Below are positions 1 through 43,426 of a DNA stretch of 64,000 nucleotides, one piece after another. The notes beneath the pieces are model-generated. The model had not been told where the DNA came from and did not search any database. It saw nothing but the letters and a program-made list of their open reading frames with translations. The DNA lies in contig OZ020248.1 in the NCBI GenBank assembly GCA_963971285.1, forward strand, positions 11,842,001-11,906,000. Reading direction: 5' to 3'. Position 1 is the first letter of the stretch; every line of letters begins with the position of its first letter. The stretch comes from Astropecten irregularis. Taxonomy: Eukaryota; Echinodermata; Asteroidea; Paxillosida; Astropectinidae. Made by a program: the position numbers and the translations under genes.

Positions 1-1527
1 TCCGACATGAACATGAGAGGAAATTTCGACATATGAGGCGAGTCGGATTTGATTTTGGGACAGGAAAAAAAAACAGGTTCCGGCCGGGTCTTGAACCCGG
101 GACGTTCAGCTCGCAGGTCCGGACCTGTCAGCTCGAGCCACTTTTTCCGACATGAACATGAGAGGAAATTTCGACATATGAGGCGAGTCGGATTTGATTT
201 TTGGGACAGGAAAAAAAAAGCGGTTCCGGCCGGGTCTTGAACCCGGTACATTTGGCTCTCAGGTACTGACCTGTCGGCTCGAGCCACTTTTTCCGACATG
301 AACATGAGAGGAAATTTTGACATATTAGGCGAGTCGGATTTGATTTTTGGGACAGGAAAAAAAAAACCGGTTCCGGCCGGGTCTTGAACCCGGGACATTC
401 GGCTCGCAGGTCCGGACCTGTCGGCTCGAGCCACTTTTTCCGACATGAACATGAGAGGAAATTTCGACATATGAGGCGAGTCGGATTTGATTTTTGGGAC
501 AGGAAAAAAAAAACAGGTTCCAGCCGGGTCTTGAACCCGGGACGTTCGGCTCACAGGTCCGGACCTGTCAGCTCGAGCCACTTTTTTCGACATGAACATG
601 AGAGGAAATTTCGACATATGAGGCAAGTCGGATTTGATTTTTGGGACAGGAAAAAAAAAACCGGTTCCAGCCGGGTCTTGAACCCGGGACGTTCGGCTTA
701 TAGGTCCGGACCTGTCAGCTCGATCCACTTTTTCCGACATGAACATGAGAGGAAATTTCGACATGAACATGAGAGGAAATTTCGACATATGAGGCGAGTC
801 GGATTTGATTTTTGGGACAGGAAAAAAAAAACCTGTTCCGGCCGGGTCTTGAACCCGGGACATTCGGCTCGCAGGTCCGGACCTGTCAGCTCGAGCCACT
901 TTTTCCGACATGAACATGAGAGGAAATTTCGACATATGAGGCGAGTCGGATTTGATTTTGGGACAGGAAAAAAAAACAGGTTCCGGCCGGGTCTTGAACC
1001 CGGGACGTTCAGCTCGCAGGTCCGGACCTGTCAGCTCGAGCCACTTTTTCCGACATGAACATGAGAGGAAATTTCGACATATGAGGCGAGTCGGATTTGA
1101 TTTTTGGGACAGGAAAAAAAAAGCGGTTCCGGCCGGGTCTTGAACCCGGTACATTTGGCTCTCAGGTACTGACCTGTCGGCTCGAGCCACTTTTTCCGAC
1201 ATGAACATGAGAGGAAATTTTGACATATTAGGCGAGTCGGATTTGATTTTTGGGACAGGAAAAAAAAAACCGGTTCCGGCCGGGTCTTGAACCCGGGACA
1301 TTCGGCTCGCAGGTCCGGACCTGTCGGCTCGAGCCACTTTTTCCGACATGAACATGAGAGGAAATTTCGACATATGAGGCGAGTCGGATTTGATTTTTGG
1401 GACAGGAAAAAAAAAACAGGTTCCAGCCGGGTCTTGAACCCGGGACGTTCGGCTCACAGGTCCGGACCTGTCAGCTCGAGCCACTTTTTTCGACATGAAC
1501 ATGAGAGGAAATTTCGACATATGAGGC
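1..1527. repeat. Array 1 higher-order repeat, 903-bp offset
   Basis: The sequence from position 1 recurs from position 904 with the same variants: a shortened GATTTTGGG, then a monomer with CCCGGTACATTTGGCTCTCAG, then one with ATATTAGG. The 903-bp unit is six monomers plus a 24-bp internal duplication, less small length differences. The two copies part near 620 (GGCAAGTCGG) and 1523 (GGCGAGTCGG). Confidence 0.8.
735..782. repeat. 24-bp local tandem duplication inside a monomer
   Basis: The segment beginning CGACATGAACATGAGAGG occurs twice in direct succession, at 735-758 and 759-782. It is a multiple of three, so it only adds eight codons to the spurious open frame. I noticed it in no other monomer of the window. 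Confidence 0.9.
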
Positions 1528-1994
1528 GAGTCGGATTTGATTTTTCGGACAGGAAAAAAAAAACCGGTTCCGGCCGGGTCTTGAACCCAGGACATTCGGC
1601 TCGCAGGTCCGGACCTGTCGGCTTGAGCCACTTTTTCCGACATGAACATGAGAGGAAATTTCGACATATGAGGCGAGTCGGATTTGATTTTTGGGACAGG
1701 AAAACAAAAACCGGTTCCGGCCAGGTCTTGAACCCGGGACGTTCGGCTCACAGGTCCGGACCTGTCAGCTCGAGCCAATTTTTCCGACATGAACATGAGA
1801 GGAAATTTCGACATATGAGGCGAGTCGGATTTGATTTTCAGGACAGGAAAAAAAAAACCGGTTCCGGCCGGGTCTTCAACCCGGGACATTCGGCTCGCAG
1901 GTCCGGACCTGTCGGCTTGAGCCACTTTTTCCGACATGAACATGAGAGGAAATTTCGACATATGAGGCGAGTCGGATTTGATTTTTGGGACAGG

Positions 1995-2004
1995 AAAAAA
2001 AAAA
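1995..2004 (-). terminator. Oligo(T) run, Pol III-type terminator (representative)
   Basis: Ten A on the plus strand give ten T on the minus strand, 13 nt downstream of the B box. Pol III normally stops at four or more T, so this is a strong terminator if the unit is transcribed. The run is 9-11 long in nearly all monomers. In a few it is broken by C, as in the monomers with AAAACAAAAA near 1700, 2143, 7419, 9032 and 10553. Confidence 0.65.
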
Positions 2005-2017
2005 CAGGTTCCGGCCG

Positions 2018-2028
2018 GGTCTTGAACC
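2018..2028 (-). promoter_or_regulatory. Perfect B box of a type 2 Pol III promoter (representative)
   Basis: The minus strand reads GGTTCAAGACC, an exact match to the B-box consensus GGTTCRANNCC, which is bound by TFIIIC. It is repeated in most of the roughly 110 monomers. Some subtypes break the invariant C: those reading GGTCTTCAACC on the plus strand (for example near 1872, 2315, 5535, 7590, 9203 and 10724) and those reading GGTCTTTAACC (near 9988, 11509, 11966 and 13048). Confidence 0.8.
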
Positions 2029-2058
2029 CGGGACGTTCGGCTCGCAGGTCCGGACCTG

Positions 2059-2071
2059 TCAGCTCGAGCCA
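2059..2071 (-). promoter_or_regulatory. A-box-like element (representative)
   Basis: The minus strand reads TGGCTCGAGCTGA. Against the eukaryotic A-box consensus TRGCNNAGYNGG it fits with one extra base after TGGCTC and the final G replaced by A. Other monomers have TGGCTCGAGCCGA, which fits equally well. The match is good but imperfect, so promoter function is an inference supported mainly by the correctly spaced B box. Confidence 0.6.
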
Positions 2072-4362
2072 CTTTTTCCGACATGAACATGAGAGGAAAT
2101 TTCGACATATGAGGCGAGTCGGATTTGATTTTTGGGACAGGAAAACAAAAACCGGTTCCGGCCAGGTCTTGAACCCGGGACGTTCGGCTCACAGGTCCGG
2201 ACCTGTCAGCTCGAGCCAATTTTTCCGACATGAACATGAGAGGAAATTTCGACATATGAGGCGAGTCGGATTTGATTTTCAGGACAGGAAAAAAAAAACC
2301 GGTTCCGGCCGGGTCTTCAACCCGGGACATTCGGCTCGCAGGTCCGGACCTGTCGGCTTGAGCCACTTTTTCCGACATGAACATGAGAGGAAATTTCGAC
2401 ATATGAGGCGAGTCGGATTTGATTTTTGGGACAGGAAAAAAAAAGCAGTTCCGGCCGGGTCTTGAACCCGGTACATTTGGCTCTCAGGTCTGGACCTGTC
2501 GGCTCGAGCCACTCATGAACATGAGAGGAAATTTTGACATATTAGGCGAGTCGGATTTGATTTTTGGGACAGGAAAAAAAAAACAGGTTCCGGCCGGGTC
2601 TTGAACCCGGGACGTTCGGCTCACAGGTCCGGACCTGTCAGCTCGAGCCACTTTTTCCGACATGAACATGAGAGGAAATTTCGACATATGAGGCGAGTCG
2701 GATTTGATTTTTCGGACAGGAAAAAAAAAACCTGTTCCGGCCGGGTCTTGAACCCGGGACATTCGGCTCGCAGGTCCGGACCTGTCAGCTCGAGCCACTT
2801 TTTCCGACATGAACATGAGAGGAAATTTCGACATATGAGGCGAGTCGGATTTGATTTTTGGGACAGGAAAAAAAAAACCGGTTCCGGCCGGGTCTTGAAC
2901 CCGGGACATTCGGCTCGCAGGTCCGGACCTGTCAGCTCGAGCCACTTTTTCCGACATGAACATGAGAGGAAATTTCGACATATGAGGCGAGTCGGATTTG
3001 ATTTTGGGACAGGAAAAAAAAACAGGTTCCGGCCGGGTCTTGAACCCAGGACGTTCAGCTCGCAGGTCCGGACCTGTCAGCTCGAGCCACTTTTTCCGAC
3101 ATGAACATGAGAGGAAATTTCGACATATGAGGCGAGTCGGATTTGATTTTTCGGACAGGAAAAAAAAAACCGGTTCCGGCCGGGTCTTGAACCCGGGACA
3201 TTCGGCTCGCAGGTCCGGACCTGTCAGCTCGAGCCACTTTTTCCGACATGAACATGAGAGGAAATTTCGACATATGAGGCGAGTCGGATTTGATTTTTGG
3301 GACAGGAAAAAAAAAACAGGTTCCGGCCGGGTCTTGAACCCGGGACGTTCGGCTCGCAGGTCCGGACCTGTCGGTTCGAGCCACTTTTTCCGACATGAAC
3401 ATGAGAGGAAATTTCGACATATGAGGCGAGTCGGATTTGATTTTTTTGACAGGAAAAAAAAAAACGGTTCCGGCTGGGTCTTGAACCCGGGACGTTCGGC
3501 TCGCAGGTCCGGACCTGTCAGCTCTAGCCACTTTTTCCGACATGAACATATGAGGAAATTTCGACATATGAGGCGAGTCGGATTTGATTTTTGGGACAGG
3601 AAAAAAAAACAGGTTCCGGCCGGGTCTTGAACCCGGGACGTTCAGCTCGCAGGTCCGGACCTGTCAGCTCGAGCCACTTTTTCCGACATGAACATGAGAG
3701 GAAATTTCGACATATGAGGCGAGTCGGATTTGATTTTTGGGACAGGAAAAAAAAAGCGGTTCCGGCCGGGTCTTGAACCCGGTACATTTGGCTCTCAGGT
3801 ACTGACCTGTCGGCTCGAGCCACTTTTTCCGACATGAACATGAGAGGAAATTTTGACATATTAGGCGAGTCGGATTTGATTTTTGGGACAGGAAAAAAAA
3901 AACCGGTTCCGGCCGGGTCTTGAACCCGGGACATTCGGCTCGCAGGTCCGGACCTGTCGGCTCGAGCCACTTTTTCCGACATGAACATGAGAGGAAATTT
4001 CGACATATGAGGCGAGTCGGATTTGATTTTTGGGACAGGAAAAAAAAAGCGGTTCCGGCCGGGTCTTGAACCCGGTACATTTGGCTCTCAGGTACTGACC
4101 TGTCGGCTCGAGCCACTTTTTCCGACATGAACATGAGAGGAAATTTTGACATATTAGGCGAGTCGGATTTGATTTTTGGGACAGGAAAAAAAAAACCGGT
4201 TCCGGCCGGGTCTTGAACCCGGGACATTCGGCTCGCAGGTCCGGACCTGTCGGCTCGAGCCACTTTTTCCGACATGAACATGAGAGGAAATTTCGACATA
4301 TGAGGCGAGTCGGATTTGATTTTTGGGACAGGAAAAAAAAAACAGGTTCCAGCCGGGTCTTG

Positions 4363-4370
4363 AACCAACC
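4363..4370. repeat. 4-bp duplication in the T-loop region of one monomer
   Basis: The usual TTGAACCCGGG is TTGAACCAACCCGGG here, a duplicated AACC. It lies at the 5' edge of the B box on the minus strand, and the T-arm hairpin of this copy is disrupted. Confidence 0.85.
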
Positions 4371-4940
4371 CGGGACGTTCGGCTCACAGGTCCGGACCTG
4401 TCAGCTCTAGCCACTTTTTCCGACATGAACATATGAGGAAATTTCGACATATGAGGCGAGTCGGATTTGATTTTTGGGACAGGAAAAAAAAACCCGGTTC
4501 CGGCCGGGTCTTGAACCCGGGACGTTCGGCTCACAGGTCCGGACCTGTCAGCTCGAGCCACTTTTTCCGACATGAACATGAGAGGAAATTTCGACATATG
4601 AGGCGAGTCGGATTTGATTTTTCGGACAGGAAAAAAAAAACCGGTTCCGGCCGGGTCTTGAACCCGGGACATTCGGCTCGCATGTCCGGACCTGTCAGCT
4701 CGAGCCACTTTTTCCGACATGAACATGAGAGGAAACTTCGACATATGAGGCGAGTCGGATTTGATTTTTGGGACAGGAAAAAAAAAACAGGTTCCGGCTG
4801 GGTCTTGAACCCGGGACGTTCAGCTCGCAGGTCCGGACCTGTCAGCTCGAGCCACTTTTTCCGACATGAACATGAGAGGAAATTTCGACATATGAGGCGA
4901 GTCGGATTTGATTTTTGGGACAGGAAAAAAAAAACAGGTT

Positions 4941-4956
4941 CCGGTCTTGAACCCGG
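4941..4956. other. Monomer with 5-bp deletion in the T-stem
   Basis: The plus strand reads GGTTCCGGTCTTGAACCC where other monomers have an additional GCCGG-type segment. The B-box core is kept but half of the T-stem is lost. Confidence 0.8.
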
Positions 4957-7900
4957 GACATTAGGCTCGCAGGTCCGGACCTGTCAGCTCGAGCCACTTT
5001 TTCCGACATGAACATGAGAGGAAATTTCGACATATTAGGCGAGTCGGATTTGATTTTTGGGACAGGAAAAAAAAAACCGGTTCCGGCCGGGTCTTGAACC
5101 CGGGATGTTCGGCTCGCAGGTCCGGACCTGTCAGCTCGAGCCACTTTTTCCGACATGAACAGGAGAGGAAATTTCGACATATGAGGCGAGTCGGATTTGA
5201 TTTTTAGGACAGGAAAAAAAAAACCGGTTCCGGCCGGGTCTTGAACCCGGGACATTCGGCTCGCAGGTCCGGACCTGTCGGCTCAAGCCACTTTTTCCGA
5301 CATGAACATGAGAGGAAATTTCGACATATTAGGCGAGTCGGATTTGATTTTTGGGACAGGAAAAAAAAAAATGGGTTCCGTCCGGGTATTGAACCCGGGA
5401 TGTTCGGCTTGCAGGTCCAGACCTGTCAGCTCGAGCCACTTTTTCCGACATGAACATGAGAGGAAATTTCGACATATGAGGCGAGTCGGATTTGATTTTT
5501 AGGACAGGAAAAAAAAAACCGGTTCCGGCCGGGTCTTCAACCCGGGACATTCGGCTCGCAGGTCCGGACCTGTCGGCTTGAGCCACTTTTTCCGACATGA
5601 ACATGAGAGGAAATTTCGACATATGAGGCGAGTCGGATTTGATTTTTGGGACAGGAAAAAAAAAACAGGTTCCGGCCGGGTCTTGAACCCGGGACGTTCG
5701 GCTTGCAGGTCCGGACCTGTCAGCTCGAGCCACTTTTTCCGACATGAACATGAGAGGAAATTTCGACATATGAGGCGAGTCGGATTTGTTTTTTCGGACA
5801 GGAAAAAAAAAAACGGTTCCGGCCGGGTCTTGAACCCGGGACATTGGGCTCGCAGGTCCGGACCTGTCAGCTCGAGCCACTTTTTCCGACATGAACATGA
5901 GAGGAAATTTCGACATATGAGGCGAGTCGGATTTGATTTTTGGGACAGGAAAAAAAAAGCGGTTCCGGCCGGGTCTTGAACCCGGTACATTTGGCTCTCA
6001 GGTCCTGACCTGTCGGCTCGAGCCACTTTTTCCGACATGAACATGAGAGGAAATTTTGACATATTAGGCGAGTCGGATTTGATTTTTGGGACAGGAAAAA
6101 AAAAACCGGTTCCGGCCGGGTCTTGAACCCGGGATGTTCGGCTCGCAGGTCCAGACCTGTCAGCTCGAGCCACTTTTTCCGACATGAACATGAGAGGAAA
6201 TTTCGACATATGAGGCGAGTCGGATTTGATTTTTAGGACAGGAAAAAAAAAACCGGTTCCGGCCGGGTCTTGAACCCGGGACATTCGGCTCGCAGGTCCG
6301 GACCTGTCGGCTCGAGCCACTTTTTCCGACATGAACATGAGAGGAAATTTCGACATATGAGGCGAGTCGGATTTGATTTTTGGGACAGGAAAAAAAAAAC
6401 AGGTTCCAGCCGGGTCTTGAACCCGGGACGTTCGGCTCACAGGTCCGGACCTGTCAGCTCGAGCCACTTTTTCCGACATGAACATGAGAGGAAATTTCGA
6501 CATATGAGGCGAGTCGGATTTGATTTTTCGGACAGGAAAAAAAAAACCGGTTCCGGCCGGGTCTTGAACCCGGGACATTCGGCTCGCAGGTCCGGACCTG
6601 TCGGCTTGAGCCACTTTTTCCGACATGAACATGAGAGGAAATTTCGACATATGAGGCGAGTCGGATTTGATTTTTGGGACAGGAAAAAAAAAGCGGTTCC
6701 GGCCGGGTCTTGAACCCGGTACATTTGGCTCTCAGGTCCTGACCTGTCGGCTCGAGCCACTTTTTCCGACATGAACATGAGAGGAAATTTTGACATATTA
6801 GGCGAGTCGGATTTGATTTTTGGGACAGGAAAAAAAAAACCGGTTCCGGCCGGGTCTTGAACCCGGGATGTTCGGCTCGCAGGTCCAGACCTGTAAGCTC
6901 GAGCCACTTTTTCCGACATGAACATGAGAGGAAATTTCGACATATGAGGCGAGTCGGATTTGATTTTTAGGACAGGAAAAAAAAAACCGGTTCCGGCCGG
7001 GTCTTGAACCCGGGACATTCGGCTCGCAGGTCCGGACCTGTCGGCTCGAGCCACTTTTTCCGACATGAACATGAGAGGAAATTTCGACATATGAGGCGAG
7101 TCGGATTTGATTTTTGGGACAGGAAAAAAAAAACAGGTTCCAGCCGGGTCTTGAACCCGGGACGTTCGGCTCACAGGTCCGGACCTGTCAGCTCGAGCCA
7201 CTTTTTCCGACATGAACATGAGAGGAAATTTCGACATATGAGGCGAGTCGGATTTGATTTTTCGGACAGGAAAAAAAAAACGGTTCCGGCCGGGTCTTGA
7301 ACCCGGGACATTCGGCTCGCAGGTCCGGACCTGTCGGCTTGAGCCACTTTTTCCGACATGAACACGAGAGGAAATTTCGACATATGAGGCGAGTCGGATT
7401 TGATTTTTGGGACAGGAAAACAAAAACCGGTTCCGGCCAGGTCTTGAACCCGGGACGTTCGGCTCGCAGGTCCGGACCTGTCAGCTCGAGCCACTTTTTC
7501 CGACATGAACATGAGAGGAAATTTCGACATATGGGGCGAGTCGGATTTGATTTTCAGGACAGGAAAAAAAAAACCGGTTCCGGCCGGGTCTTCAACCCGG
7601 GACATTCGGCTCGCAGGTCCGGACCTGTCGGCTTGAGCCACTTTTTCCGACATGAACATGAGAGGAAATTTCGACATATGAGGCGAGTCGGATTTGATTT
7701 TTGGGACAGGAAAAAAAAAGCGGTTCCGGCCGGGTCTTGAACCCGGTACATTTGGCTCTCAGGTCCGGACCTGTCGGCTCGAGCCACTTCTTCCGACATG
7801 AACATGAGAGGAAATTTTGACATATTAGGCGAGTCGGATTTGATTTTTGGGACAGGAAAAAAAAAACCGGTTCCGGCCGGGTCTTGAACCCGGGATGTTC

Positions 7901-8879
7901 GGCTCGCAGGTCCAGACCTGTCAGCTCGAGCCACTTTTTCCGACATGAACATGAGAGGAAATTTCGACATATGAGGCGAGTCGGATTTGATTTTTAGGAC
8001 AGGAAAAAAAAAACCGGTTCCGGCCGGGTCTTGAACCCGGGACATTCGGCTCGCAGGTCCGGACCTGTCGGCTCGAGCCACTTTTTCCGACATGAACATG
8101 AGAGGAAATTTCGACATATGAGGCGAGTCGGATTTGATTTTTGGGACAGGAAAAAAAAAACAGGTTCCGGCTGGGTCTTGAACCCAGGACATTCGGCTCG
8201 CAGGTCCGGACCTGTCGGCTCGAGCCACTTTTTCCGACATGAACATGAGAGGAAATTTCGACATATGAGGCAAGTCGGATTTGATTTTTGGGACAGGAAA
8301 AAAAAAACCGGTTCCGGCCGGGTCTTGAACCCGGGACATTCGGCTCGCAGGTCTGGACCTGTCAGCTCGAGCCACTTTTTCCGACATGAACATGAGAGGA
8401 AATTTCGACATATGAGGCGAGTCGGATTTGATTTTGGGACAGGAAAAAAAAACAGGTTCCGGCCGGGTCTTGAACCCGGGACGTTCAGCTCGCAGGTCCG
8501 GACCTGTCAGCTCGAGCCACTTTTTCCGACATGAACATGAGAGGAAATTTCGACATATGAGGCGAGTCGGATTTGATTTTTGGGACAGGAAAAAAAAAGC
8601 GGTTCCGGCCGGGTCTTGAACCCGGTACATTTGGCTCTCAGGTCCTGACCTGTCGGCTCGAGCCACTTTTTCCGACATGAACATGAGAGGAAATTTTGAC
8701 ATATTAGGCGAGTCGGATTTGATTTTTGGGACAGGAAAAAAAAAACCGGTTCCGGCCGGGTCTTGAACCCGGGATGTTCGGCTCGCAGGTCCAGACCTGT
8801 AAGCTCGAGCCACTTTTTCCGACATGAACATGAGAGGAAATTTCGACATATGAGGCGAGTCGGATTTGATTTTTAGGAC

Positions 8880-11569
8880 AGGAAAAAAAAAACCGGTTCC
8901 GGCCGGGTCTTGAACCCGGGACATTCGGCTCGCAGGTCCGGACCTGTCGGCTGGAGCCACTTTTTCCGACATGAACACGAGAGGAAATTTCGACATATGA
9001 GGCGAGTCGGATTTGATTTTTGGGACAGGAAAACAAAAACCGGTTCCGGCCAGGTCTTGAACCCGGGACGTTCGGCTCGCAGGTCCGGACCTGTCAGCTC
9101 GAGCCACTTTTTCCGACATGAACATGAGAGGAAATTTCGACATATGGGGCGAGTCGGATTTGATTTTCAGGACAGGAAAAAAAAAAACGGTTCCGGCCGG
9201 GTCTTCAACCCGGGACATTCGGCTCGCAGGTCCGGACCTGTCGGCTTGAGCCACTTTTTCCGACATGAACATGAGAGGAAATTTCGACATATGAGGCGAG
9301 TCGGATTTGATTTTTGGGACAGGAAAAAAAAAGCGGTTCCGGCCGGGTCTTGAACCCGGTACATTTGGCTCTCAGGTCCGGACCTGTCGGCTCGAGCCAC
9401 TTCTTCCGACATGAACATGAGAGGAAATTTTGACATATTAGGCGAGTCGGATTTGATTTTTGGGACAGGAAAAAAAAAACCGGTTCCGGCCGGGTCTTGA
9501 ACCCGGGATGTTCGGCTCGCAGGTCCAGACCTGTCAGCTCGAGCCACTTTTTCCGACATGAACATGAGAGGAAATTTCGACATATGAGGCGAGTCGGATT
9601 TGATTTTTAGGACAGGAAAAAAAAAACCGGTTCCGGCCGGGTCTTGAACCCGGGACATTCGGCTCGCAGGTCCGGACCTGTCGGCTCGAGCCACTTTTTC
9701 CGACATGAACATGAGAGGAAATTTCGACATATGAGGCGAGTCGGATTTGATTTTTGGGACAGGAAAAAAAAAACAGGTTCCGGCTGGGTCTTGAACCCAG
9801 GACATTCGGCTCGCAGGTCCGGACCTGTCGGCTCGAGCCACTTTTTCCGACATGAACATGATTTTTGGGACAGGAAAAAAAAAGCTCGAGCCACTTTTTC
9901 CGACATGAACATGAGAGGAAATTTCGACATATGAGGCGAGTCGGATTTAATTTTTGGGACAGGAAAAAAAAAACCTGTTCCGGCCGGGTCTTTAACCCAG
10001 GACGTTCGGCTCGCAGGTCCGGACCTGTCAGCTCGAGCCACTTTTTCCGACATGAACATGAGAGGAAATTTCGACATATGAGGCGAGTCGGATTTGATTT
10101 TTAGGACAGGAAAAAAAAAACCGGTTCCGGCCGGGTCTTGAACCCGGGACATTCGGCTCGCAGGTCCGGACCTGTCGGCTCGAGCCACTTTTTCCGACAT
10201 GAACATGAGAGGAAATTTCGACATATGAGGCGAGTCGGATTTGATTTTTGGGACAGGAAAAAAAAAACAGGTTCCAGCCGGGTCTTGAACCCGGGACGTT
10301 CGGCTCACAGGTCCGGACCTGTCAGCTCGAGCCACTTTTTCCGACATGAACATGAGAGGAAATTTCGACATATGAGGCGAGTCGGATTTGATTTTTCGGA
10401 CAGGAAAAAAAAACCGGTTCCGGCCGGGTCTTGAACCCGGGACATTTGGCTCGCAGGTCCGGACCTGTCGGCTTGAGCCACTTTTTCCGACATGAACACG
10501 AGAGGAAATTTCGACATATGAGGCGAGTCGGATTTGATTTTTGGGACAGGAAAACAAAAACCGGTTCCGGCCAGGTCTTGAACCCGGGACGTTCGGCTCG
10601 CAGGTCCGGACCTGTCAGCTCGAGCCACTTTTTCCGACATGAACATGAGAGGAAATTTCGACATATGGGGCGAGTCGGATTTGATTTTCAGGACAGGAAA
10701 AAAAAAACCGGTTCCGGCCGGGTCTTCAACCCGGGACATTCGGCTCGCAGGTCCGGACCTGTCGGCTTGAGCCACTTTTTCCGACATGAACATGAGAGGA
10801 AATTTCGACATATGAGGCGAGTCGGATTTGATTTTTGGGACAGGAAAAAAAAAGCGGTTCCGGCCGGGTCTTGAACCCGGTACATTTGGCTCTCAGGTCC
10901 GGACCTGTCGGCTCGAGCCACTTCTTCCGACATGAACATGAGAGGAAATTTTGACATATTAGGCGAGTCGGATTTGATTTTTGGGACAGGAAAAAAAAAA
11001 CCGGTTCCGGCCGGGTCTTGAACCCGGGATGTTCGGCTCGCAGGTCCAGACCTGTCAGCTCGAGCCACTTTTTCCGACATGAACATGAGAGGAAATTTCG
11101 ACATATGAGGCGAGTCGGATTTGATTTTTAGGACAGGAAAAAAAAAACCGGTTCCGGCCGGGTCTTGAACCCGGGACATTCGGCTCGCAGGTCCGGACCT
11201 GTCGGCTCGAGCCACTTTTTCCGACATGAACATGAGAGGAAATTTCGACATATGAGGCGAGTCGGATTTGATTTTTGGGACAGGAAAAAAAAAACAGGTT
11301 CCGGCTGGGTCTTGAACCCAGGACATTCGGCTCGCAGGTCCGGACCTGTCGGCTCGAGCCACTTTTTCCGACATGAACATGATTTTTGGGACAGGAAAAA
11401 AAAAGCTCGAGCCACTTTTTCCGACATGAACATGAGAGGAAATTTCGACATATGAGGCGAGTCGGATTTGATTTTTGGGACAGGAAAAAAAAAACCTGTT
11501 CCGGCCGGGTCTTTAACCCAGGACGTTCGGCTCGCAGGTCCGGACCTGTCAGCTCGAGCCACTTTTTCC
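8880..11569. repeat. Array 1 higher-order repeat, 1521-bp tandem duplication
   Basis: The segment from about 8880 to 10048 recurs at about 10401-11569 with the same ordered set of variants. These include the ACACGAGAGG monomer, the AAAACAAAAA monomer, the GGGGCGAGTCGG monomer, the GGTCTTCAACC monomer, the CCCGGTACATTTGG monomer, and the doubly deleted 53-bp monomer (9846 and 11367). Part of the block appears a third time at about 12419-13110, offset 1538 bp from the second copy. Confidence 0.85.
9846..9898. repeat. 53-bp doubly deleted monomer lacking the tRNA-like core (first copy)
   Basis: Two deletions are present. One joins CATGA directly to TTTTTGGG, removing the ATATGAGGCGAG part. The other joins the A-run directly to GCTCGAGCC, removing the B-box part. 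The same form is found at 11367-11419, 11861-11912 (52 bp) and 12905-12957, so one founding event was spread by higher-order amplification. At 11913 a further monomer carries only the first deletion. Confidence 0.85.
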
Positions 11570-11860
11570 AACATGAACATGAGAGGAAATTTGAACATAT
11601 GAGGCGAGTCGGATTTGATTTTTGGGACAGGAAAAAAAAAACCGGTTCCGGCCGGGTCTTGAACCCAGGACATTCGGCTCGCAGGTCCGGACCTGTCGGC
11701 TCGAGCCACTTTTTCCGACATGAACATGAGAGGAAATTTCGACATATGAGGCGAGTCGGATTTGATTTTTGGGACAGGAAAAAAAAAACAGGTTCCGGCT
11801 GGGTCTTGAACCCAGGACATTCGGCTCGCAGGTCCGGACCTGTCGGCTCGAGCCACTTTT

Positions 11861-12010
11861 TCCGACATGAACATGATTTTTGGGACAGGAAAAAAAAGCT
11901 CGAGCCACTTTTTCCGACATGAACATGATTTTTGGGACAGGAAAAAAAAAACCTGTTCCGGCCGGGTCTTTAACCCAGGACGTTCGGCTCGCAGGTCCGG
12001 ACCTGTCAGC
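11861..12010. repeat. Two deletion monomers in succession
   Basis: A 52-bp doubly deleted monomer (11861-11912) is followed at once by a monomer carrying only the CATGATTTTTGGG deletion, which still has the tRNA-like part in its GGTCTTTAACC subtype. This singly deleted form could be the intermediate of the double deletion, or a recombinant of the double-deletion and full-length types. Confidence 0.75.
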
Positions 12011-14426
12011 TCGAGCCACTTTTTCCAACATGAACATGAGAGGAAATTTCGACATATGAGGCGAGTCGGATTTGATTTTTGGGACAGGAAAAAAAAAACA
12101 TGTTCCGGCCGGGTCTTGAACCCGGGACGTTCGGCTCGCAGGTCCGGACCTGTCAGCTCGAGCCACTTTTTCCGACATGAACATGAGAGGAAATTTCGAC
12201 ATATGAGGCGAGTCGGATTTGATTTTTGGGACAGGAAAAAAAAAACCGGTTCCAGCCGGGTCTTGAACCCGGGACGTTCGGCTTATAGGTCCAGACCTGT
12301 CGGCTTGAGCCACTTTTTCCGACATGAACATGAGAGGAAATTTCGACATATGAGGCGAGTCGGATTTGATTTTTGGGACAGGAAAAAAAAACCGGTTCCG
12401 GCCGGGTCTTGAACCCGGTACATTTGGCTCTCAGGTCCGGACCTGTCGGCTCGAGCCACTTTTTCCGACATGAACATGAGAGGAAATTTTGACATATTAG
12501 GCGAGTCGGATTTGATTTTTGGGACAGGAAAAAAAAAACCGGTTCCGGCCGGGTCTTGAACCCGGGATGTTCGGCTCGCAGGTCCAGACCTGTCAGCTCG
12601 AGCCACTTTTTCCGACATGAACATGAGAGGAAATTTCGACATATGAGGCGAGTCGGATTTGATTTTTAGGACAGGAAAAAAAAAACCGGTTCCGGCCGGG
12701 TCTTGAACCCGGGACATTCGGCTCGCAGGTCCGGACCTGTCGGCTCGAGCCACTTTTTCCGACATGAACATGAGAGGAAATTTCGACATATGAGGCGAGT
12801 CCGATTTGATTTTTGGGACAGGAAAAAAAAAACAGGTTCCGGCTGGGTCTTGAACCCAGGACATTCGGCTCGCAGGTCCGGACCTGTCGGCTCGAGCCAC
12901 TTTTTCCGACATGAACATGATTTTTGGGACAGGAAAAAAAAAGCTCGAGCCACTTTTTCCGACATGAAGATGAGAGGAAATTTCGACATATGAGGCGAGT
13001 CGGATTTGATTTTTGGGACAGGAAAAAAAAAACCTGTTCCGGCCGGGTCTTTAACCCAGGACGTTCGGCTCGCAGGTCCGGACCTGTCAGCTCGAGCCAC
13101 TTTTTCCAACATGAACATGAGAGGAAATTTCGACATATGAGGCGAGTCGGATTTGATTTTTGGGACAGGAAAAAAAAAACATGTTCCGGCCGAGTCTTGA
13201 ACCCGGGACGTTCGGCTCGCAGGTCCGGACCTGTCGGCTCGAGCCACTTTTTCCGACATGAACATGAGAGGAAATTTCGACATATGAGGCGAGTCGGATT
13301 TGATTTTTGGGACAGAAAAAAAAAACCCGTTCCGGCCGGGTCTTGAACCCGGGACGTTCGGCTCGCAGGTCCGGACCTGTCAGCTCGAGCCACTTTTTCC
13401 GACATGAACATGAGAGGAAATTTCGACATATGAGGCGAGTTGGATTTGATTTTTGGGACAGAAAAAAAAAACCGGTTCCGGCCGGGTCTTGAACCCGGGA
13501 CATTCGGCTCGCAGGTCCAGACCTGTCGGCTCGAGCCACTTTTTCCGACTTGAACATGAGAGGAAATTTCGACATATGAGGCGAGTCGGATTTGATTTTT
13601 GGGACAGGAAAAAAAAAACCGGTTCCGGCCGGGTCTTGAACCCAGGACATTCGGCTCGCAGGTCCGGACCTGTCGGCTCGAGCCACTTTTTCCGACATGA
13701 ACATGAGAGGAAATTTCGACATATGAGGCGAGTCGGATTTGATTTTTGGGACAGGAAAAAAAAAACCGGTTCCGGCCGGGTCTTGAACCCAGGACATTCA
13801 GCTCGCAGGTCCGGACCTGTCGGCTCGAGCCACTTTTTCCGACATGAACATGAGAGGAAATTTCGACATATGAGGCGAGTCGGATTTGATTTTTGGGACA
13901 GGAAAAAAAAACCTGTTCCGGCCGGGTCTTGAACCCGGGACGTTCGACTCGCAGGTCCAGACCTGTCAGCTCGAGCCACTTTTTCCGACATGAACATGAG
14001 AGGAAATTTCGACATATGAGGCGAGTCGGATTTGATTTTTGGGACAGGAAAAAAAAAACAGGTTCCGGCCGGGTCTTGAACCCGGGACGTTCGGCTCGCA
14101 GGTCCGTACCTGTCAGCTCGAGCCACTTTTTCCGACATGAACATGAGAGGAAATTTCGACATATGAGGCGAGTCGGATTTGATTTTTCGGACAGGAAAAA
14201 AAAAACCGGTTCCGGCCGGGTCTTGAACCCGGGACATTCGGCTCGCAGGTCCGGACCTGTCAGCTCGAGCCACTTTTTCCGACATGAACATGAGAGGAAA
14301 TTTCGACATATGAGGCGAGTCGGATTTGATTTTTGGGACAGGAAAAACAAAAAAACGGTTCCGGCCGGGTCTTGAACCCGGGACGTTCGGCTCGCAGGTC
14401 CGGACCTGTCAGCTCGAGCCACTTTT

Positions 14427-14511
14427 TCCGACATAAACATGAGAGGAAATTTCGAAATATGACCGGGACATTCAGCTCGCAGGACCGGACCTGTCGGCTC
14501 GAGCCACTTTT
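14427..14511. repeat. 85-bp truncated monomer lacking A-run and B box
   Basis: The plus strand reads CGAAATATGACCGGGACATTC at the breakpoint, so about 62 bp are missing, including the A-run and the whole T-arm. The flanking monomers share the unusual GAAATATG variant, which places this deletion in a local subfamily. Confidence 0.8.
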
Positions 14512-15838
14512 TCCGACATGAACATGAGAGGAAATTTCGAAATATGAGGCGAGTCGGATTTGATTTTTGGGACAGGAAAAACAAAAACCGGTTCCGGCCG
14601 GGTCTTGAACCCGGGACGTTCGGCTCGCAGGTCCGGAACTGTCAGCTCGAGCCACTTTTTCCGACATGAATATGAGAGGAAATTTCGACATATGAGGCGA
14701 GTCTGATTTGATTTTTGGGACAGGAAAAAAAAAACCGGTTCCGGCTGGGTCTTGAACCCGGGACGTTCGGCTCGCAGGTCCGGAACTGTCATCTCGAGCC
14801 ACTTTTTCCGACATGAATATGAGAGGAAATTTCGACATATGAGGCGAGTCGGATTTGATTTTTGGGACAGGAAAAACAAAAACCCGGTTCCGGCCAGGTC
14901 TTGAACCCGGGACATTCGGCTCGCAGGTCCGGACCTGTCAGCACGAGCCACTTTTTCCGACATGAACATGAGAGGAAATTTCGACATATGAGGCGAGTCG
15001 AATTTGATTTTTGGGACAGGAAAAAAAAAACCGGTTCCGGCCGGGTCTTGAACCCGGGACATTCGGCTCGCAGGTCCGGAACCTGTCGGCTCGAGCCACT
15101 TTTTCCGACATGAACATGAGAGGAAATTTCGACATATGAGGCGAGTCGGATTTGATTTTTGGGACAGGAAAAAAAAAACCGGTTCCGGCCGGGTCTTGAA
15201 CCCGGGACATTCGGCTCGCAGGTCCGGACCTGTCAGCTCGAGCCACTTTTTCCGACATGAACATGAGAGGAAATTTCGACATATGAGGCGAGTCGGATTT
15301 GATTTTTGGGACAGGAAAAAAAGAAACGGTGCCGGCCGGGTCTTGAACCCGGGACATTCGGCTCGCAGGTCCGGACCTGTCAGCTCGAGCCACTTTTTCC
15401 GACATGAACATGAGAGGAAATTTCGACATATGAGGCGAGTCGGATTTGATTTTTGGGACAGGAAAAAAAAAACCGGTTCCGGCCGGTTCTTGAACCCGGG
15501 ACATTCGGCTCGCAGGTCCGGACCTGCCAGCTCGAGCCACTTTTTCCGACATGAACATGAGAGGAAATTTCGACATATGAGGCGAGTCGGATTTGATTTT
15601 TGGGACAGGAAAAAAAAAACCGGTTCCGGACGGGTCTTGAACCCGGGACGTTCGGCTCGCAGGTCCGGACTTGTCGGCTCGAGCCACTTTTTCCGACATG
15701 AACATGAGAGGAAATTTTGACATATGAGGCGAGTCGGATTTGATTTTTGGGACAGGAAAAAAAAAACCGGTTCCGGCCGGGTCTTGAACCCGGGACGTTT
15801 GGCTCGCAGGTCCAGACCTGTCAGCTCGAGCCACTTTT

Positions 15839-15940
15839 TCCGACATGAACATGAGAGGAAAAAAAAAACCGGTTCCGGCCGGGTCTTGAACCCGGGACGT
15901 TCGACTCGCAGGTCCGGACCTGTCGGCTAGAGCCACTTTT
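15839..15940. repeat. 102-bp truncated monomer, deletion between AGGAAA repeats
   Basis: GAGAGGAAA runs straight into the A-run and CCGGTTCCGG, losing about 45 bp between the AGGAAA of GAGAGGAAATTT and that of GACAGGAAAAAA. This is a deletion at a short direct repeat. The following copy also lacks the CTCGAG site (GGCTAGAGCC). Confidence 0.85.
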
Positions 15941-16249
15941 TCCGACATGAATATGAGAGGAAATTTCGACATATGAGGCGAGTCGGATTTGATTTTTGGG
16001 ACAGGAAAAAAAAAACCGGTTCCGGCCGGGTCTTGAACCCGGGACGTTCGGCTCGCAGGTCCGGACCTGTCGGCTCGAGCCACTTTTTCCGACATGAACA
16101 TGAGAGGAAATTTCGACATATGAGGCGAGTCGGATTTGATTTTTGGGACAGGAAAAAATAAACCGGTTCCGTCCGGGTCTTGAACCCGGGACGTTCGGCT
16201 CGCAGGTCCGGACCTGTCGGCTCGAGCCACTTTTTCCGACAAGGGGGGG

Positions 16250-16275
16250 CCAGGGGGGGCACGTGCCCCCCCTGG
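16250..16275. repeat. 26-bp perfect palindrome
   Basis: A CCAG arm with seven G is followed by the centre CACGTG and the mirror-complement arm of seven C and CTGG. It could extrude as a cruciform or mark a fold-back end of the transposon fragment. Confidence 0.95.
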
Positions 16276-16390
16276 AAAACCTTGTGACCCCCCTCGTGCC
16301 CCCCCATTTGAAATTTGGGTTGATGAAAAAAAATAAAGTATATAAAACGTGTGCCCCCCCAACAATTGCTAGTGCCCCCCTTGTGCCCCC

Positions 16391-16408
16391 CCAGACTCAA
16401 AAGTCTGG
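16391..16408. repeat. Terminal hairpin of the transposon fragment
   Basis: CCAGACT and AGTCTGG form a 7-bp stem around the loop CAAA, 11 bp from the presumed transposon end. Such subterminal hairpins are common in non-autonomous elements. Confidence 0.85.
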
Positions 16409-16419
16409 TGACGCCACTG

Positions 16420-18473
16420 CTTGTACCAAGTGAAATCAACCCGGTTGCCGTCAAAACACTGTAAAATAACTGTTTGACTAACATTTTTGTGCTAGAGTTT
16501 GAAATAACTCCTTCAATACTGAGCCGATCAAGCTGAAAACTGCACAAAATGTAGCCCCACATGTTCCCTACAGAAAATTCGCGTATTCGTCACATTTTCA
16601 AGGCATTTTCATAGCCGAAAGTTCAAGTATATCACGACTTGTACGAAGTGAAATCAACCCGGTTGCCGTCAAAACACTGTAAAATAACTGTTTGACTAAC
16701 ATTTTTGTGCTATAGAGTTGCAAATTACTCCTTCAATACTGAGCCGATCAAGCTGAAAACTGCACAAAATGTAGCCCCAGATGTTCCCTATAGGAAAATA
16801 GCGTATTCGTCACATTTCTATGGCATTTTCACGGCCAAAAGTTCAAGTATAGCACGACTTGTATCAGGTGAAATCAACCCGGTTGCCGTCAAAACACTGA
16901 AAAATAACTGTTTGACTAACATTTTTGTGCTAGAGTTGCAAATAACTCCTTCAATACTGAGCCGATCAAGCTGAAAAATACACAAAATGTAGCCCCAGAT
17001 GTTCCCTACAGGATAGTAGCCTAGTTGTTACATTTCCAAGGCATTTTCATGGCCGAAAGTTCAAGTATAGCACGACTTGTACCAAGTGAAAACAACCAAA
17101 TAGCCGTCAAAACACTGATAAAGAACTGTTTGACAAACATGTTTGTGCTAGAGTTGCAAATAACTCCTTCAATACTGAGCCGATCAAGCTGAAAACTGCA
17201 CAAAATGTAGCCCCAGATGTTCCCTACAGGATAGTAGCCTAGTTGTTACATTTCCAAGGCATTTTCATGGCCGAAAGTTCAAGTAAAGCACGACTTGTTC
17301 CAAGTGAAATCAACCCAGTAGCCGTCAAAACACTGAAAAAGAACTGTTTGACAAACATTTTTGTGCTAGAGTTGGAATTAACTCCTTCAATACTGAGCCG
17401 ATCAAGCTGAAAACAGCACAAAATGTAGCCCCAGATGTTCCCTATAGAAAAAGAGCGTATTCGTCACATTTCCAAGCCATTTTCATAGCCGAAAGTTCAA
17501 GTATAGCACGACTTGTACCAAGTGAAATCAACCCGGATGCCGTCAAAACACTGTATATAAAATAACTGTTTGACTAACATTTTTGTGCTAGAGTTGCAAA
17601 TAACTCCTTCAATACTGAGCCGATAAAGTTGAAAACTGCACAAAATGTAACCCCAGATGTTCCATACAGGATAGTAGCCTAGTTGTTACATTTCCAAGGC
17701 ATTTTCATGGCCAAAAGTTCAAGTATAGCACGACTTGTACCAAGTGAAACCAACACAGTAGCCGTCAAAACACTGATAAAGAATTGTTTGACTAACATTT
17801 TTGTGCTAGAGTTGCAAACAAATCCTTCAATACTGAGCCGATCAAGCTAAAAACTGCACAAAATGTAGCCCCAGATGTTCCCTACAGGATAGTAGCCTAG
17901 TTGTTACATTTCCAAGGCATTTTCATGGCCGAAAGTTCAAGTATAGCACGACTTGTACCAAGTGAAAACAACCAAGTAGCCGTCAAAACACTGATGAAGA
18001 ATTGTTTGACTAACATTTTTGTGCTAGAGTTGCAAATAACTCCTTCAACATTGAGCCGATCAAGTTGAAAACTGCACAAAATGTAGCCCCAGATGTTCCC
18101 TACAGGAAAGAAGCCTAGTTGTTACATTTCCAAGGCATTTATATGGCCAAAAGTTCAAGTAAAGCACGACTTGTTCCAAGTGAAATCAACCCGGTTGCCG
18201 TCAAAACACTGAAAAATAACTGTTTGACTAACATTTTTGTGCTAGAGTTGCAAATAACTCCTTCAATACTGAGCCGATCAAGCTGAAAACTGCACAAAAT
18301 GTAGCCCCAGATGTTCCCTATAGGAATATAGCGTATTCGTCACATTTCTATGGCATTTTCACGGCCAAAAGTTCAAGTATAGCACGACTTGTATCAGGTG
18401 AAATCAACCCGGTTGCCGTCAAAACACTGAAAAATAACTGTTTGACTAACATTTTTGTGCTAGAGTTGCAAAT
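16420..18473. repeat. Proximal edge of array 2, less regular order
   Basis: Monomers next to the transposon fragment carry variants rare deeper in the array, such as AGAGTTTGAAATAACTCC (about 16494), ACAGAAAATTCGCG (about 16570), CTGAAAAATACAC (16971) and TGAGCCGATAAAGTTG (about 17616). A segment around 16700-17230 recurs about 1530 bp (7 monomers) downstream at about 18230-18770. This fits the lower homogenisation expected at array edges. Confidence 0.65.
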
Positions 18474-21102
18474 AACTCCTTCAATACTGAGCCGATCAAG
18501 CTGAAAAATACACAAAATGTAGCCCCAGATGTTCCCTACAGGATAGTAGCCTAGTTGTTACATTTCCAAGGCATTTTCATGGCCGAAAGTTCAAGTATAG
18601 CACGACTTGTACCAAGTGAAAACAACCAAATAGCCGTCAAAACACTGATAAAGAACTGTTTGACAAACATGTTTGTGCTAGAGTTGCAAATAACTCCTTC
18701 AATACTGAGCCGATCAAGCTGAAAACTGCACAAAATGTAGCCCCAGATGTTCCCTACAGGATAGTAGCCTAGTTGTTACATTTCCAAGGCATTTTCATGG
18801 CCGAAAGTTCAAGTATAGCACGACTTGTACCAAGTGAAACCAACCCAGTAGCCGTCAAAACACTGATAAAGAACTGTTTGACTAAAATTTTTGTGCTAGA
18901 GTTGCAAATAACTCCTTCAAAATTGAGTCGATCAAGCTGAAAAACTGCACAAAATGTAGCCCCAGATGTTCCCTACAGGAAAATAGCCTAGTTGTTAAAT
19001 TTCCAAGGCATTTTCATGGCCAAAAGTTCAAGTAAAGCACGACTTGTTCCAAGTGAAATCAACCCAGTAGCCGTCAAAACACTGTAAAATAACTGTTTGA
19101 CTAACATTTTTGTGCTATAGAGTTGCAAATTACTCCTTCAATACTGAGCCGATCAAGCTGAAAACTGCACAAAATGTAGCCCCAGATGTTCCCTACGGGA
19201 AAATAGCGTATTCGTCACATTTCCATGGCATTTTCACGGCCAAAAGTTCAAGTATAGCACGACTTGTATCAGGTGAAACCAACACAGTAGCCGTCAAAAC
19301 ACTGAAAAAGAACTGTTTGACAAATATTTTTGTGCTAGAGTTGGAATTAACTCCTTCAATACTGAGCCGATCAAGCTGAAAACTGCACAAAATGTAGCCC
19401 CAGATGTTCCCTATAGAAAAAGAGCGTATTCGTCACATTTCCAAGCCTTTTTCATAGCCGAAAGTTCAAGTATAGCACGACTTGTACCAAGTGAAATCAA
19501 CCCGGTTGCCGTCAAAACACTGTATATAAAATAACTGTTTGACAAACATTTTTGTGCTAGAGTTGCAAATAACTCCTTCAATACTGAGCCGATCAAGTTG
19601 AAAACTGCACAAAATGTAACCCCAGATGTTCCATACAGGATAGTAGCCTAGTTGTTACATTTCCAAGGCATTTTCATGGCCGAAAGTTCAAGTATAGCAC
19701 GACTTGTACCAAGTGAAACCAACACAGTAGCCGTCAAAACACTGATAAAGAATTGTTTGACTAACATTTTTGTGCTAGAGTTGCAAACAAATCCTTCAAT
19801 ACTGAGCCGATCAAGCTAAAAACTGCACAATATGTAGCCCCAGATGTTCCCTACAGGATAGTAGCCTAGTTGTTACATTTCCAAGGCATTTTCATGGCCG
19901 AAAGTTCAAGTATAGCACGACTTGTACCAAGTGAAAACAACCAAGTAGCCGTCAAAACACTGATAAAGAATTGTTTGACTAACATTTTTGTGCTAGAGTT
20001 GCAAATAACTCCTTCAACATTGAGCCGATCAAGCTGACAAACTGCACAAAATGTAGCCCCAGATGTTCCCTACAGGATAGTAGCCTAGTTGTTACATTTC
20101 CAAGGCATTTTCATGGCCAAAAGTTCAAGTAAAGCACGACTTGTTCCAAGTGAAATCAACAAAGTAGCCGTCAAAACACTGTAAAATAACTGTTTGACTA
20201 ACATTTTTGTGCTATAGAGTTGCAAATTACTCCTTCAATACTGAGCCGATCAAGCTGAAAACTGCACAAAATGTAGCCCCAGATGTTCCCTACAGGAAAA
20301 CAACGTATTCGTCACATTTCCATGGCATTTTCACGGCCACAAATTCAAGTATAGCACGACTTGTTCCATGTGAAATCAACCCGGTTGCCGTCAAAACACT
20401 GCGAAAGAACTGTTTGACTAACATTTTTGTGCTAGAGTTGCAAATAACTCCTTCAATACTGAGCCGATCAAGCTGAAAACTGCACAAAATGTAGCCCCAG
20501 ATGTTCCCTACAGGATAGTAGCATAGTTGTTACATTTCCAAGGCATTTATATGGCCAAAAGTTCAAGTAAAGCACGACTTGTTCCAAGTGAAATCAACCC
20601 AGTAGCCGTCAAAACACTGTAAAATAACTGTTTGACTAACATTTTTGTGCTATAGAGTTGCAAATTACTCCTTCAATACTGAGCCGATCAAGCTGAAAAC
20701 TGCACAAAATGTAGCCCCAGATGTTCCCTATAGGAAAATAGCGTATTCGTCACATTTCTATGGCATTTTCACGGCCAAAAGTTCAAGTATAGCACGACTT
20801 GTATCAGGTGAAATCAACCCGGTTGCCGTCAAAACACTGAAAAATAACTGTTTGACTAACATTTTTGTGCTAGAGTTGAAAATAACTCCTTTAATACTGA
20901 GCCGATCAAGCTAAAAACTGCACAAAATGGAGCCCCACATGTTCCTATACAGGAAAATAGCGTATTCGTCACATTTACAAGGCATTTTCATGGCCGAAAG
21001 TTCAAGTATAGCACGACTTGTATCAGGTGAAAACAACACAGTAGCCGTCAAAACACTGAAAAAGAACTGTTTGACAAACATTTTTGTGCTAGAGTTGGAA
21101 TT
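18474..21102. repeat. Array 2 12-monomer block, copy A (2629 bp)
   Basis: This block is followed directly by a second copy offset by 2629 bp. Matching landmarks are CTGAAAAATACAC (18501 and 21130), the CAAACATGTTTGTG monomer, the AATTGAGTCGATC monomer, the CTACGGGAAAATAG monomer, and the ACAAATTCAAG monomer. Twelve monomers of 219 bp account for the length. Confidence 0.85.
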
Positions 21103-23731: not shown

Positions 23732-25336
23732 AACTCCTTCAATACTGAGCCGATCAAGCTGAAAACTGCACAAAATGTAGCCCCAGATGTTCCCTACAGG
23801 AAAATAGCCTAGTTGTTACATTTCCAAGGCATTTACATGGCCAAAAGTTCAAGTAAAGCACGACTTGTTCCAAGTGAAATCAACCCAGTAGCCGTCAAAA
23901 CACTGTAAAATAACTGTTTGACTAACATTTTTGTGCTATAGAGTTGCAAATTACTCCTTCAATACTGAGCCGATCAAGCTGAAAACTGCACAAAATGTAG
24001 CCCAAGATGTTCCCTTCAGGAAAATAGCGTATTCGTCACATTTCCATGGCATTTTCACGGCCAAAATTTCAAGTATAGCACGACTTGTTCCATGTGAATT
24101 CAACCCGGTTGCCGTCAAAACACTGCAAAAGGACTGTTTGACTAACATTTTTGTGCTAGAGTTGCAAATAACTCCTTCAATACTGAGCCGATCAAGTTGA
24201 AAACTGCACAAAATGTAGCCCCAGATGTTCCCTACAGGATAGTAGCCTAGTTGTTACATTTCCAAGGCATTTATATGGCCAAAAGTTCAAGTAAAGCACG
24301 ACTTGTTCCAAGTGAAATCAACCCAGTAGCCGTCAAAACACTGAAAAAGAACTGTTTGACAAACATTTTTGTGCTAGAGTTGGAATTAACTCCTTCAATA
24401 CTGAGCCGATCAAGCTGAAAACTGCACAAAATGTAGCCCCAGATGTTCCCTATAGAAAAAGAGCGTATTCGTCACATTTCCAAGCCATTTTCATAGCCGA
24501 AAGTTCAAGTATAGCACGACTTGTACCAAGTGAAATCAACCCGGTTGCCGTCAAAACACTGTATATAAAATAACTGTTTGACTAACATTTTTGTGCTAGA
24601 GTTGCAAATAACTCCTTCAATACTGAGCCGATAAAGTTGAAAACTGCACAAAATGTAACCCCAGATGTTCCATACAGGATAGTAGCCTAGTTGTTACATT
24701 TCCAAGGCATTTTCATGGCCAAAAGTTCAAGTATAGCACGACTTGTACCAAGTGAAACCAACACAGTAGCCGTCAAAACACTGATAAAGAATTGTTTGAC
24801 TAACATTTTTGTGCTAGAGTTGCAAACAAATCCTTCAATACTGAGCCGATCAAGCTAAAAACTGCACAAAATGTAGCCCCAGATGTTCCCTACAGGATAG
24901 TAGCCTAGTTGTTACATTTCCAAGGCATTTTCATGGCCGAAAGTTCAAGTATAGCACGACTTGTATCAGGTGAAATCAACCCGGTTGCCGTCAAAACACT
25001 GAAAAATAACTGTTTGACTAACATTTTTGTGCTAGAGTTGCAAATAACTCCTTCAATACTGAGCCGATCAAGTTGAAAACTGCACAAAATGTAGCCCCAG
25101 ATGTTCCCTACAGGAAAGAAGCCTAGTTGTTAAATTTCCAAGGCATTTCCATGGCCGAAAGTTCAAGTATAGCACGACTTGTTCCATGTGAAATCAACAC
25201 GGTTGCCGTCAAAACACTGCGAAAGAACTGTTTGACTAACATTTTTGTGCTAGAGTTGCAAATAACTCCTTGAATACTGAGCCGATCAAGCTGAAAACTG
25301 CACAAAATGTAGCCCCAGATGTTCCCTACAGGATAG

Positions 25337-25388
25337 TAGCCTAGTTGTTACATTTCCAAGGCATTTTCATGGCCGAAAGTTCAAGTAT
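25337..25388 (+). promoter_or_regulatory. A-box/B-box-like pair in array 2 monomer (representative)
   Basis: TAGCCTAGTTG at 25337-25347 fits the A-box pattern TRGYNNARNNG exactly. AGTTCAAGTAT at 25378-25388, 41 nt later, keeps the GTTCAA core of a B box but misses the first G and last CC. A T5 run follows at 25460-25464. No T-arm stem forms, and a TTTT lies between the two boxes. In the GCGTATTCG subtypes the A box is weakened. The pair could be a decayed tRNA-like promoter or chance. Confidence 0.3.
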
Positions 25389-25391
25389 AGC

Positions 25392-25404
25392 ACGACTTGT
25401 ACCA
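25392..25404. repeat. Dyad ACTTGTACCAAGT in array 2 monomer (representative)
   Basis: ACTTG and CAAGT are inverted repeats around three bases. The variant ACTTGTTCCAAGT keeps the dyad, while ACTTGTATCAGGT and ACTTGTTCCATGT break it. The site recurs once per monomer and could bind a dimeric protein; no function is shown. Confidence 0.45.
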
Positions 25405-43200: not shown

Positions 43201-43426
43201 TGGAATTAACTCCTTCAATACTGAGCCGATCAAGCTGAAAACTGCCCAAAATGTAGCCCCAGATGTTCCCTACAGGAAAATAGCCTAGTTGTTACATTTC
43301 CAAGGCATTTACATGGCCAAAAGTTCAAGTAAAGCACGACTTGTTCCAAGTGAAATCAACCCAGTAGCCGTCAAAACACTGTAAAATAACTGTTTGACTA
43401 ACATTTTTGTGCTATAGAGTTGCAAA
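34237..43426. repeat. Large higher-order segment, copy 2
   Basis: This is the partner of 23297-32486. The rare-variant monomers reappear in the same order at +10,940 bp (for example 34948, 41521, 41081, 40209 and 36677). Near the distal end the copy carries changes not in copy 1, such as CTCACATTTTTG at about 42961 and GCCCAAAATG near 43244. The latter matches the block at 36449 better than the 32 kb region, so a switch of template lies between about 42400 and 43250. Confidence 0.8.

Follow-up and report, generated by a model that had tools for sequence, protein, structure and literature searches.

A tRNA-module satellite of the sea star Astropecten irregularis, perhaps kept for TFIIIC or RNA polymerase III use

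Tandem repeats with tRNA-like sequence

Several tandem repeat families are described that contain transfer RNA (tRNA)-like sequence or sequence linked to RNA polymerase III (Pol III), namely newt PolIII/TAN, Xenopus OAX, Rana/polIII and Hydromantes Hy/polIII (PMC10702118). Here we analyse a 64-kb window (the whole stretch examined, positions 11842001-11906000 of contig OZ020248.1, labelled C11) from the genome of the sea star Astropecten irregularis, 475.7 Mb in 168 contigs. Positions 1-16241 of the window are filled by a tandem array of a 147-bp satellite unit, as determined with Tandem Repeats Finder, whose minus strand carries, in most units, a 66-nt module with a B box and a T-arm, followed by a terminator-like T run. 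Across arrays of this satellite family the module consensus is constant except at CpG sites, whereas subfamilies differ in the spacer.

The comparisons that follow draw on two papers (PMC10702118 and PMC11121367). PolIII/TAN (formerly Hirt), from Cynops pyrrhogaster, has a unit of ~360 nt that was transcribed in vitro, and a similar short interspersed element (SINE) is said to be unknown (PMC10702118). It resembles the 147-bp satellite in being a tandem repeat with tRNA-like sequence, and the window array is of the same kind, its unit containing a tRNA-like B-box region; the two are set apart by description, at ~360 nt against 147-150 bp for a satellite that is known from sequence alone. Xenopus OAX, or satellite I, is likewise a tandem repeat with a tRNA-derived segment, but its unit has been termed too long for a proper satellite (PMC10702118), whereas the unit here is short and some half of it is taken up by the module and T run. 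Rana/polIII (~250 nt) and Hy/polIII (~200 nt) are also tandem families linked to Pol III or tRNA-like sequence; Hy/polIII reportedly has no box B (PMC10702118), whereas the 147-bp satellite shows its B box more clearly than any other element and has no established A box.

A tie between tRNA-type elements and short tandem units is further seen in the SINE-derived sSat of squamates, of which two variants in a single gecko average 143 and 151 nt (PMC10702118), and in PcH-sat of Patella, also SINE-derived and reportedly without both boxes (PMC11121367). These trace to dispersed SINEs, whereas no dispersed copy of the 147-bp satellite was seen among the matches listed. The tRNA-module satellite is thus of a kind already known, since PMC10702118 describes tandem families with Pol III-linked or tRNA-like sequence, and the initial annotation, made from the letters of the window, was only partly right to call such an array unusual. 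For constraint on a module relative to its spacer in such a satellite, no description was found in the literature looked at, and absence elsewhere is not claimed. Six pieces of 18-20 letters from the 147-bp satellite and the 218-bp satellite that follows it had no match in the literature text searched.

The module and its elements

The features of the window are as follows.

1..16241, minus strand: array of the 147-bp satellite (Tandem Repeats Finder), up to the array's right end
76..141, minus strand: first complete 66-nt tRNA-like module, of the GTGGC...GGAACC type, repeated in full monomers
128..140, minus strand: A-box-like TGGCTCGAGCTGA of this first module, no better than chance
84..100, minus strand: T-arm CCGGGTTCAAGACCCGG of this module, with a 5-bp stem and 7-nt loop
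87..97, minus strand: B box GGTTCAAGACC of this module
65..73, minus strand: T9 run of the same example, Pol III terminator-like
9853..9905, minus strand: 53-nt truncated monomer without a B box, from monomer cutting
16242..16419, no strand assigned: junction DNA with G/C tracts and palindromes, separating the two satellites
16420..64000, no strand assigned: 218-bp satellite, ~47.6 kb, which served as a natural control

The array was cut into 113 monomer pieces, 104 of them full-length and 72 distinct as aligned. Read on the minus strand, the 66-nt module (consensus GTGGCTCGAGCYGACAGGTCCGGACCTGCGAGCCGAAYGTCCCGGGTTCAAGACCCGGCCGGAACC) is followed in most cases by GG, next by a T run of 8-10 and then by the spacer, so that the unit divides into 66 bp of module and a remainder of ~81 bp. 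Allowing up to two substitutions, the minus strand of the array holds 110 B-box sites, 96 of which are exactly GGTTCAAGACC, and the strict pattern GGTTCRANNCC occurs 97 times on the minus strand and never on the plus strand. The 218-bp satellite after position 16420, in which no resemblance to the 147-bp unit was seen, lacks the strict B box and the T-arm on both strands.

The elements keep a regular spacing. In 101 of the 103 full monomers with both elements the TGGC motif precedes the B box by 43 nt, and the T run begins 13 nt past the B box in 92/103; a run of T9-11 is present in 94/104 full monomers, and at least four T residues follow the module in all 104. The tandem satellite and, for most monomers, the minus-strand B box with its 43-nt spacing, the intact T-arm and the T9-11 run 13 nt further on were described correctly in the initial annotation. 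Its proposal that every monomer carries the set, giving about 110 potential transcription units, holds for most of the array: there are 110 B-box sites, but the complete set (TGGC at 43 nt, strict B box, 5-bp T stem and T>=4) is found at 89 of them, and short monomers without any B box number at least four (9853-9905, 11374-11426, 11868-11919, of 52 nt, and 12912-12964).

Comparison of the boxes and their spacing with shuffled monomers had been named beforehand as a test, and it separated the elements. A strict B box arose in 197/20000 dinucleotide-shuffled monomers in tandem, and a B box with T>=4 within 40 nt in 48/20000; a perfect T-arm was obtained in 246/100000 shuffles, and together with T>=4 within 25 nt in only 52/100000. 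The B box, T-arm and terminator of the 147-bp satellite are real and lie beyond chance, but the A box does not, as set out below.

Resemblance to any particular tRNA is far less clear. ARAGORN at default settings found no tRNA gene and only at a lowered threshold a poor cloverleaf, Rfam at gathering scores gave no match of any kind in the whole window, and RF00005 was without a match in positions 1-3000 (up to E=5) and in a single monomer (up to E=10); at these thresholds the covariance-model scan suggested by the initial annotation recognised no tRNA. The best score for mascRNA/menRNA (RF01684) was 20.8-20.9 bits (positions 1-3000 and one monomer) against a gathering score of 42.5, with none at gathering in the window, and a mascRNA-like fold would need an acceptor stem in which one pair is broken in 66/68 distinct monomers; this candidate was rejected. 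The upstream half of the module folds into other inverted repeats.

A sample of the animal's own tRNAs was also compared. It comprised 62 listed RF00005 matches (72911 first-look candidates, 63 scored), from which 30 loci were cut out, yielding 269 ARAGORN calls, overlapping loci and repeats included, and 54 distinct tRNAs. Among these 54, mostly Lys, Thr and Cys genes, no convincing progenitor was found; the best local match of the module was to a tRNA-Cys T-arm with a score of 23, shuffled modules reaching 20 (90%) and 26 (99%). Viral contigs held 0 exact matches to each of three patterns, one each from the spacer, the module and the 218-bp satellite. The exact 17-nt T-arm occurred in 15 viral contigs, and because it lay inside a called tRNA in only 1/15, the T-arm letters alone are weak evidence of tRNA origin. 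Dense tRNA gene clusters were noted in the genome at C12:16.09-16.40 Mb, C24:2.59 Mb and C8:1.05 Mb, and Lys, Thr and Cys dominate the sampled loci. Protein coding was also considered, as 147 = 3 x 49, 3/6 consensus frames are open throughout and 36 open reading frames of at least 150 aa overlap 1..16420; it was rejected because family arrays with periods of 148-150 bp shift frame with each unit.

Module and spacer across the family

The satellite is a family of considerable size. The genome holds 2502 exact copies of the module core GGTTCAAGACCCGGCCGGAACC, of which 252 are in forward and 2250 in reverse orientation, but 0 of its reversed control, and the spacer word AAAAATCAA follows the core by 6-30 nt in 2402 of the 2502 copies. 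An exact B box with an exact spacer 20-mer downstream of it is found in 3155 units genome-wide, and the B-dead form GGTTGAAGACC... has nine copies, six of which are in the window's array. This array continues to the left on contig C11 for at least 39.6 kb (reads of loci L033-L036), and further arrays were read on contigs C8, C10, C11, C14 and C18, with periods elsewhere in the family of 148-150 bp. With a spacer anchor as the cutting point, 14 array samples yielded 729 monomers, of which 660 have a strict B box and all 729 have T>=4. Moreover, a T run of 8-10 is present in all 13 array consensus sequences, although the flanks differ.

Module and spacer were compared between 13 array groups, holding 708 of the 729 monomers and lying on five contigs, after leaving out C8a, with two monomers, and C8e2, which nearly duplicates C8e. 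The window and the group to its left (C11left) are one physical array, and C8b_A and C8b_B are two blocks of one array, so that the 13 groups represent 11 places. At non-CpG sites the group consensus sequences differ at 0/47 positions in the module and at 18/55 in the spacer (p=3.3e-6); with adjacent differences merged to 11 events the contrast remains (p=8e-4), and with CpG sites included the figures are 5/66 and 19/65 (p=0.0015).

Some of the arrays had been located by a 22-mer from the module, a choice biased towards module conservation, and arrays found by a spacer pattern were added for this reason; the window was itself chosen for its module. The window and five such arrays gave 0/47 against 13/55 (p=1.7e-4; events, p=0.0016), and exclusion of the bases used in the module search gave 0/30 against 18/55 (p=1.6e-4; events, p=0.007). 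An earlier five-group test with another alignment had given 1/46 for the module, the one difference being a gap at the T-run border, and 13/58 for the spacer.

The module is variable within arrays: 29/47 module sites and 35/55 spacer sites are polymorphic within some array. In a McDonald-Kreitman-like contrast, fixed differences were set against sites that are polymorphic only (p=9e-6) and against all polymorphic sites (p=1.5e-4). Between arrays, non-CpG sites diverge by a mean of 0.036 in the module and 0.129 in the spacer, whereas within arrays the picture is mixed, the module being the more divergent part in 8/13 groups and the spacer in 5/13. The arrays belong to few subfamilies, and the differences are not thirteen independent samples; the comparison of module with spacer is nevertheless a fair one because both have one common history. 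The constancy of the module between arrays on five contigs may be taken as support for a functional role.

With regard to how the family spread, the listed places fall in clusters or in arrays that were read, and no dispersed SINE-like copy was seen among the matches listed (100 of 2502, 9/9 and 52/52 for the three exact-match patterns). Array borders, read by eye, show differing phases of the unit. Because the border phases differ and no dispersed copy was among these matches, the family probably spread as DNA rather than through SINE-like retroposition. The strand bias of the core motif presumably reflects a few large arrays in a common orientation.

A number of further observations were made around the arrays. 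In the window, the 53-nt truncated monomers at 9853-9905, 11374-11426 and 12912-12964 are identical in sequence, and their recurrence at intervals of 1521 and 1538 bp suggests higher-order repeats of about 10 units. In the junction at 16242-16419, several GTGCCCCCC motifs were noted along with G7/C7 tracts and a perfect palindrome of 26 bp (CCAGGGGGGGCAC/GTGCCCCCCCTGG). At locus L016 (C8, ~9.49 Mb) the same GC-rich stretch (GCGGATCCAGGGGTGGGCCGCGGGGGCACGTGCCCCCC...) lies on both sides of a small family array, as if the array were carried in, or adjoined, a dispersed element. At L028:7907-8155 the array ends ~160 bp before a first exon reading MGVPAFFRWLSKKYPSIVVHCNEEK (Pfam XRN_N, E=2.9e-6), and by this sequence match the array adjoins a predicted gene.

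Possible roles of the module

The reading that we favour, though tentatively, is that the tRNA-module satellite is kept for putative TFIIIC or Pol III use. The module would descend from a tRNA or a tRNA-type Pol III element, and would most likely be a TFIIIC-binding site able to start short Pol III transcripts of ~75-90 nt that end in the T run; the good B box and the terminator make TFIIIC binding with short Pol III transcripts the natural candidate. The module may have been retained by virtue of lineages that found new arrays needing it, with single copies within an array free to decay, and selection on founder units, or on a sufficient number of working copies per array, would fit the pattern of decay within and constancy between arrays. 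A site for TFIIIC with a B box only, which would be insulator-like, may be considered as an alternative to a full Pol III promoter; the insulation and the heterochromatin seeding put forward in the initial annotation would be candidate roles as well. A stronger form of the proposal, which we regard as possible but on the doubtful side, is that the spread of the family depends on the putative Pol III/TFIIIC module, new arrays on other chromosomes having been founded only by lineages that kept it.

Several results weigh against such use. Of the elements of a type 2 (tRNA-like) Pol III unit, the B box and a terminator of T>=4 are present and the A box is not: upstream of the B box the pattern TRGYNNANNNG fits at 0/110 sites and the shorter TRGYNNA at 11/110, and 55% of shuffled upstream sequences match an A box equally well or better when one inserted base is allowed in both. 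The A-box-like element of the initial annotation is not borne out, since shuffled sequence does equally well; without it the whole promoter set assigned to each unit falls away, and the case for a promoter is weakened. RNA folding was not clearly better than that of shuffles (z of -0.4 and -0.6; in a further set -1.5, -0.9 and -0.3), and convincing covariation was not found, the paired changes being mostly at CpG sites. Within arrays the B box has no box-specific protection. Its critical C is mutated in 17/729 monomers from 8/15 groups, compared with nine monomers and one monomer of the 729 for the 'free' positions 8 and 9, respectively; in the window the key C is G or A at 10/110 sites. Non-CpG segregating sites in the window array number 23/53 in the transcript region (monomer positions 7-79) and 10/47 in the spacer (p=0.02), the opposite direction to constraint, with no protection of the boxes, and the same contrast by diversity gave p=0.11. 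Between arrays, the module consensus differs at 5/19 CpG-capable sites, four of them C/T, against 1/10 in the spacer. Variation in the window array is mostly C-to-T at CpG (sites varying: CpG 17/24, CHG 7/21, CHH 7/31), and this CpG-type decay suggests CpG-methylated DNA; methylated arrays would in turn argue for silence.

Alternatively, the satellite may be a passive relic, in which a tRNA pseudogene, or the head of a tRNA-type SINE, was tandemly amplified together with its T run and the B box marks ancestry but is inactive now. The free decay of the module, B box included, inside arrays, the recurrence of short monomers without a B box, the likeness of the CpG-type decay to silenced DNA and the differing border phases, by which the arrays are not retroposed units, are all consistent with this explanation. 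Constancy of the module between arrays whose spacer changes is not predicted by it, however, and we judge it unlikely. That constancy could instead reflect homogenisation, by interlocus gene conversion or recombination focused on a GC-rich, palindrome-rich module, or the dyads may bind a protein unrelated to Pol III. The module is indeed a series of inverted repeats (GGCTCGAGCC, CAGGTCCGGACCTG and CCGGGTTCAAGACCCGG) in sequence and in folds, and its divergence of 0.036 between arrays lies inside the within-array range (0 to 0.080), as would result from conversion. Conversion of 66 bp across five contigs that spares the adjoining spacer is nevertheless a special assumption, and homogenisation alone gives no account of the T run kept in 13/13 consensus sequences; this account appears quite unlikely.

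It is also conceivable that a GC-rich satellite simply came to have a B-box-like inverted repeat beside an A/T tract. At ~5e-4 per random unit such a coincidence is not negligible across many satellites, the T-arm matches in viral contigs were nearly all outside called tRNAs (all but 1/15), and the progenitor tRNA was not found in the partial sample. The T-arm, the position of the T run and the constancy between arrays would be hard to obtain jointly, and we consider chance very improbable.

Satellites of the Pol III-like type can be plain relics, and the combination of a constant module with a drifting remainder makes the present one a testable case of a satellite living by a promoter or TFIIIC site. 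Should the spread of the family indeed depend on the module, the thousands of short tandem Pol III-like units counted here would constitute a selected or selfish chromosomal element, one that would be detectable from the letters of the genome by a McDonald-Kreitman-like contrast of module with spacer. The same contrast may be applied to other satellites for which assembled genomes are available.

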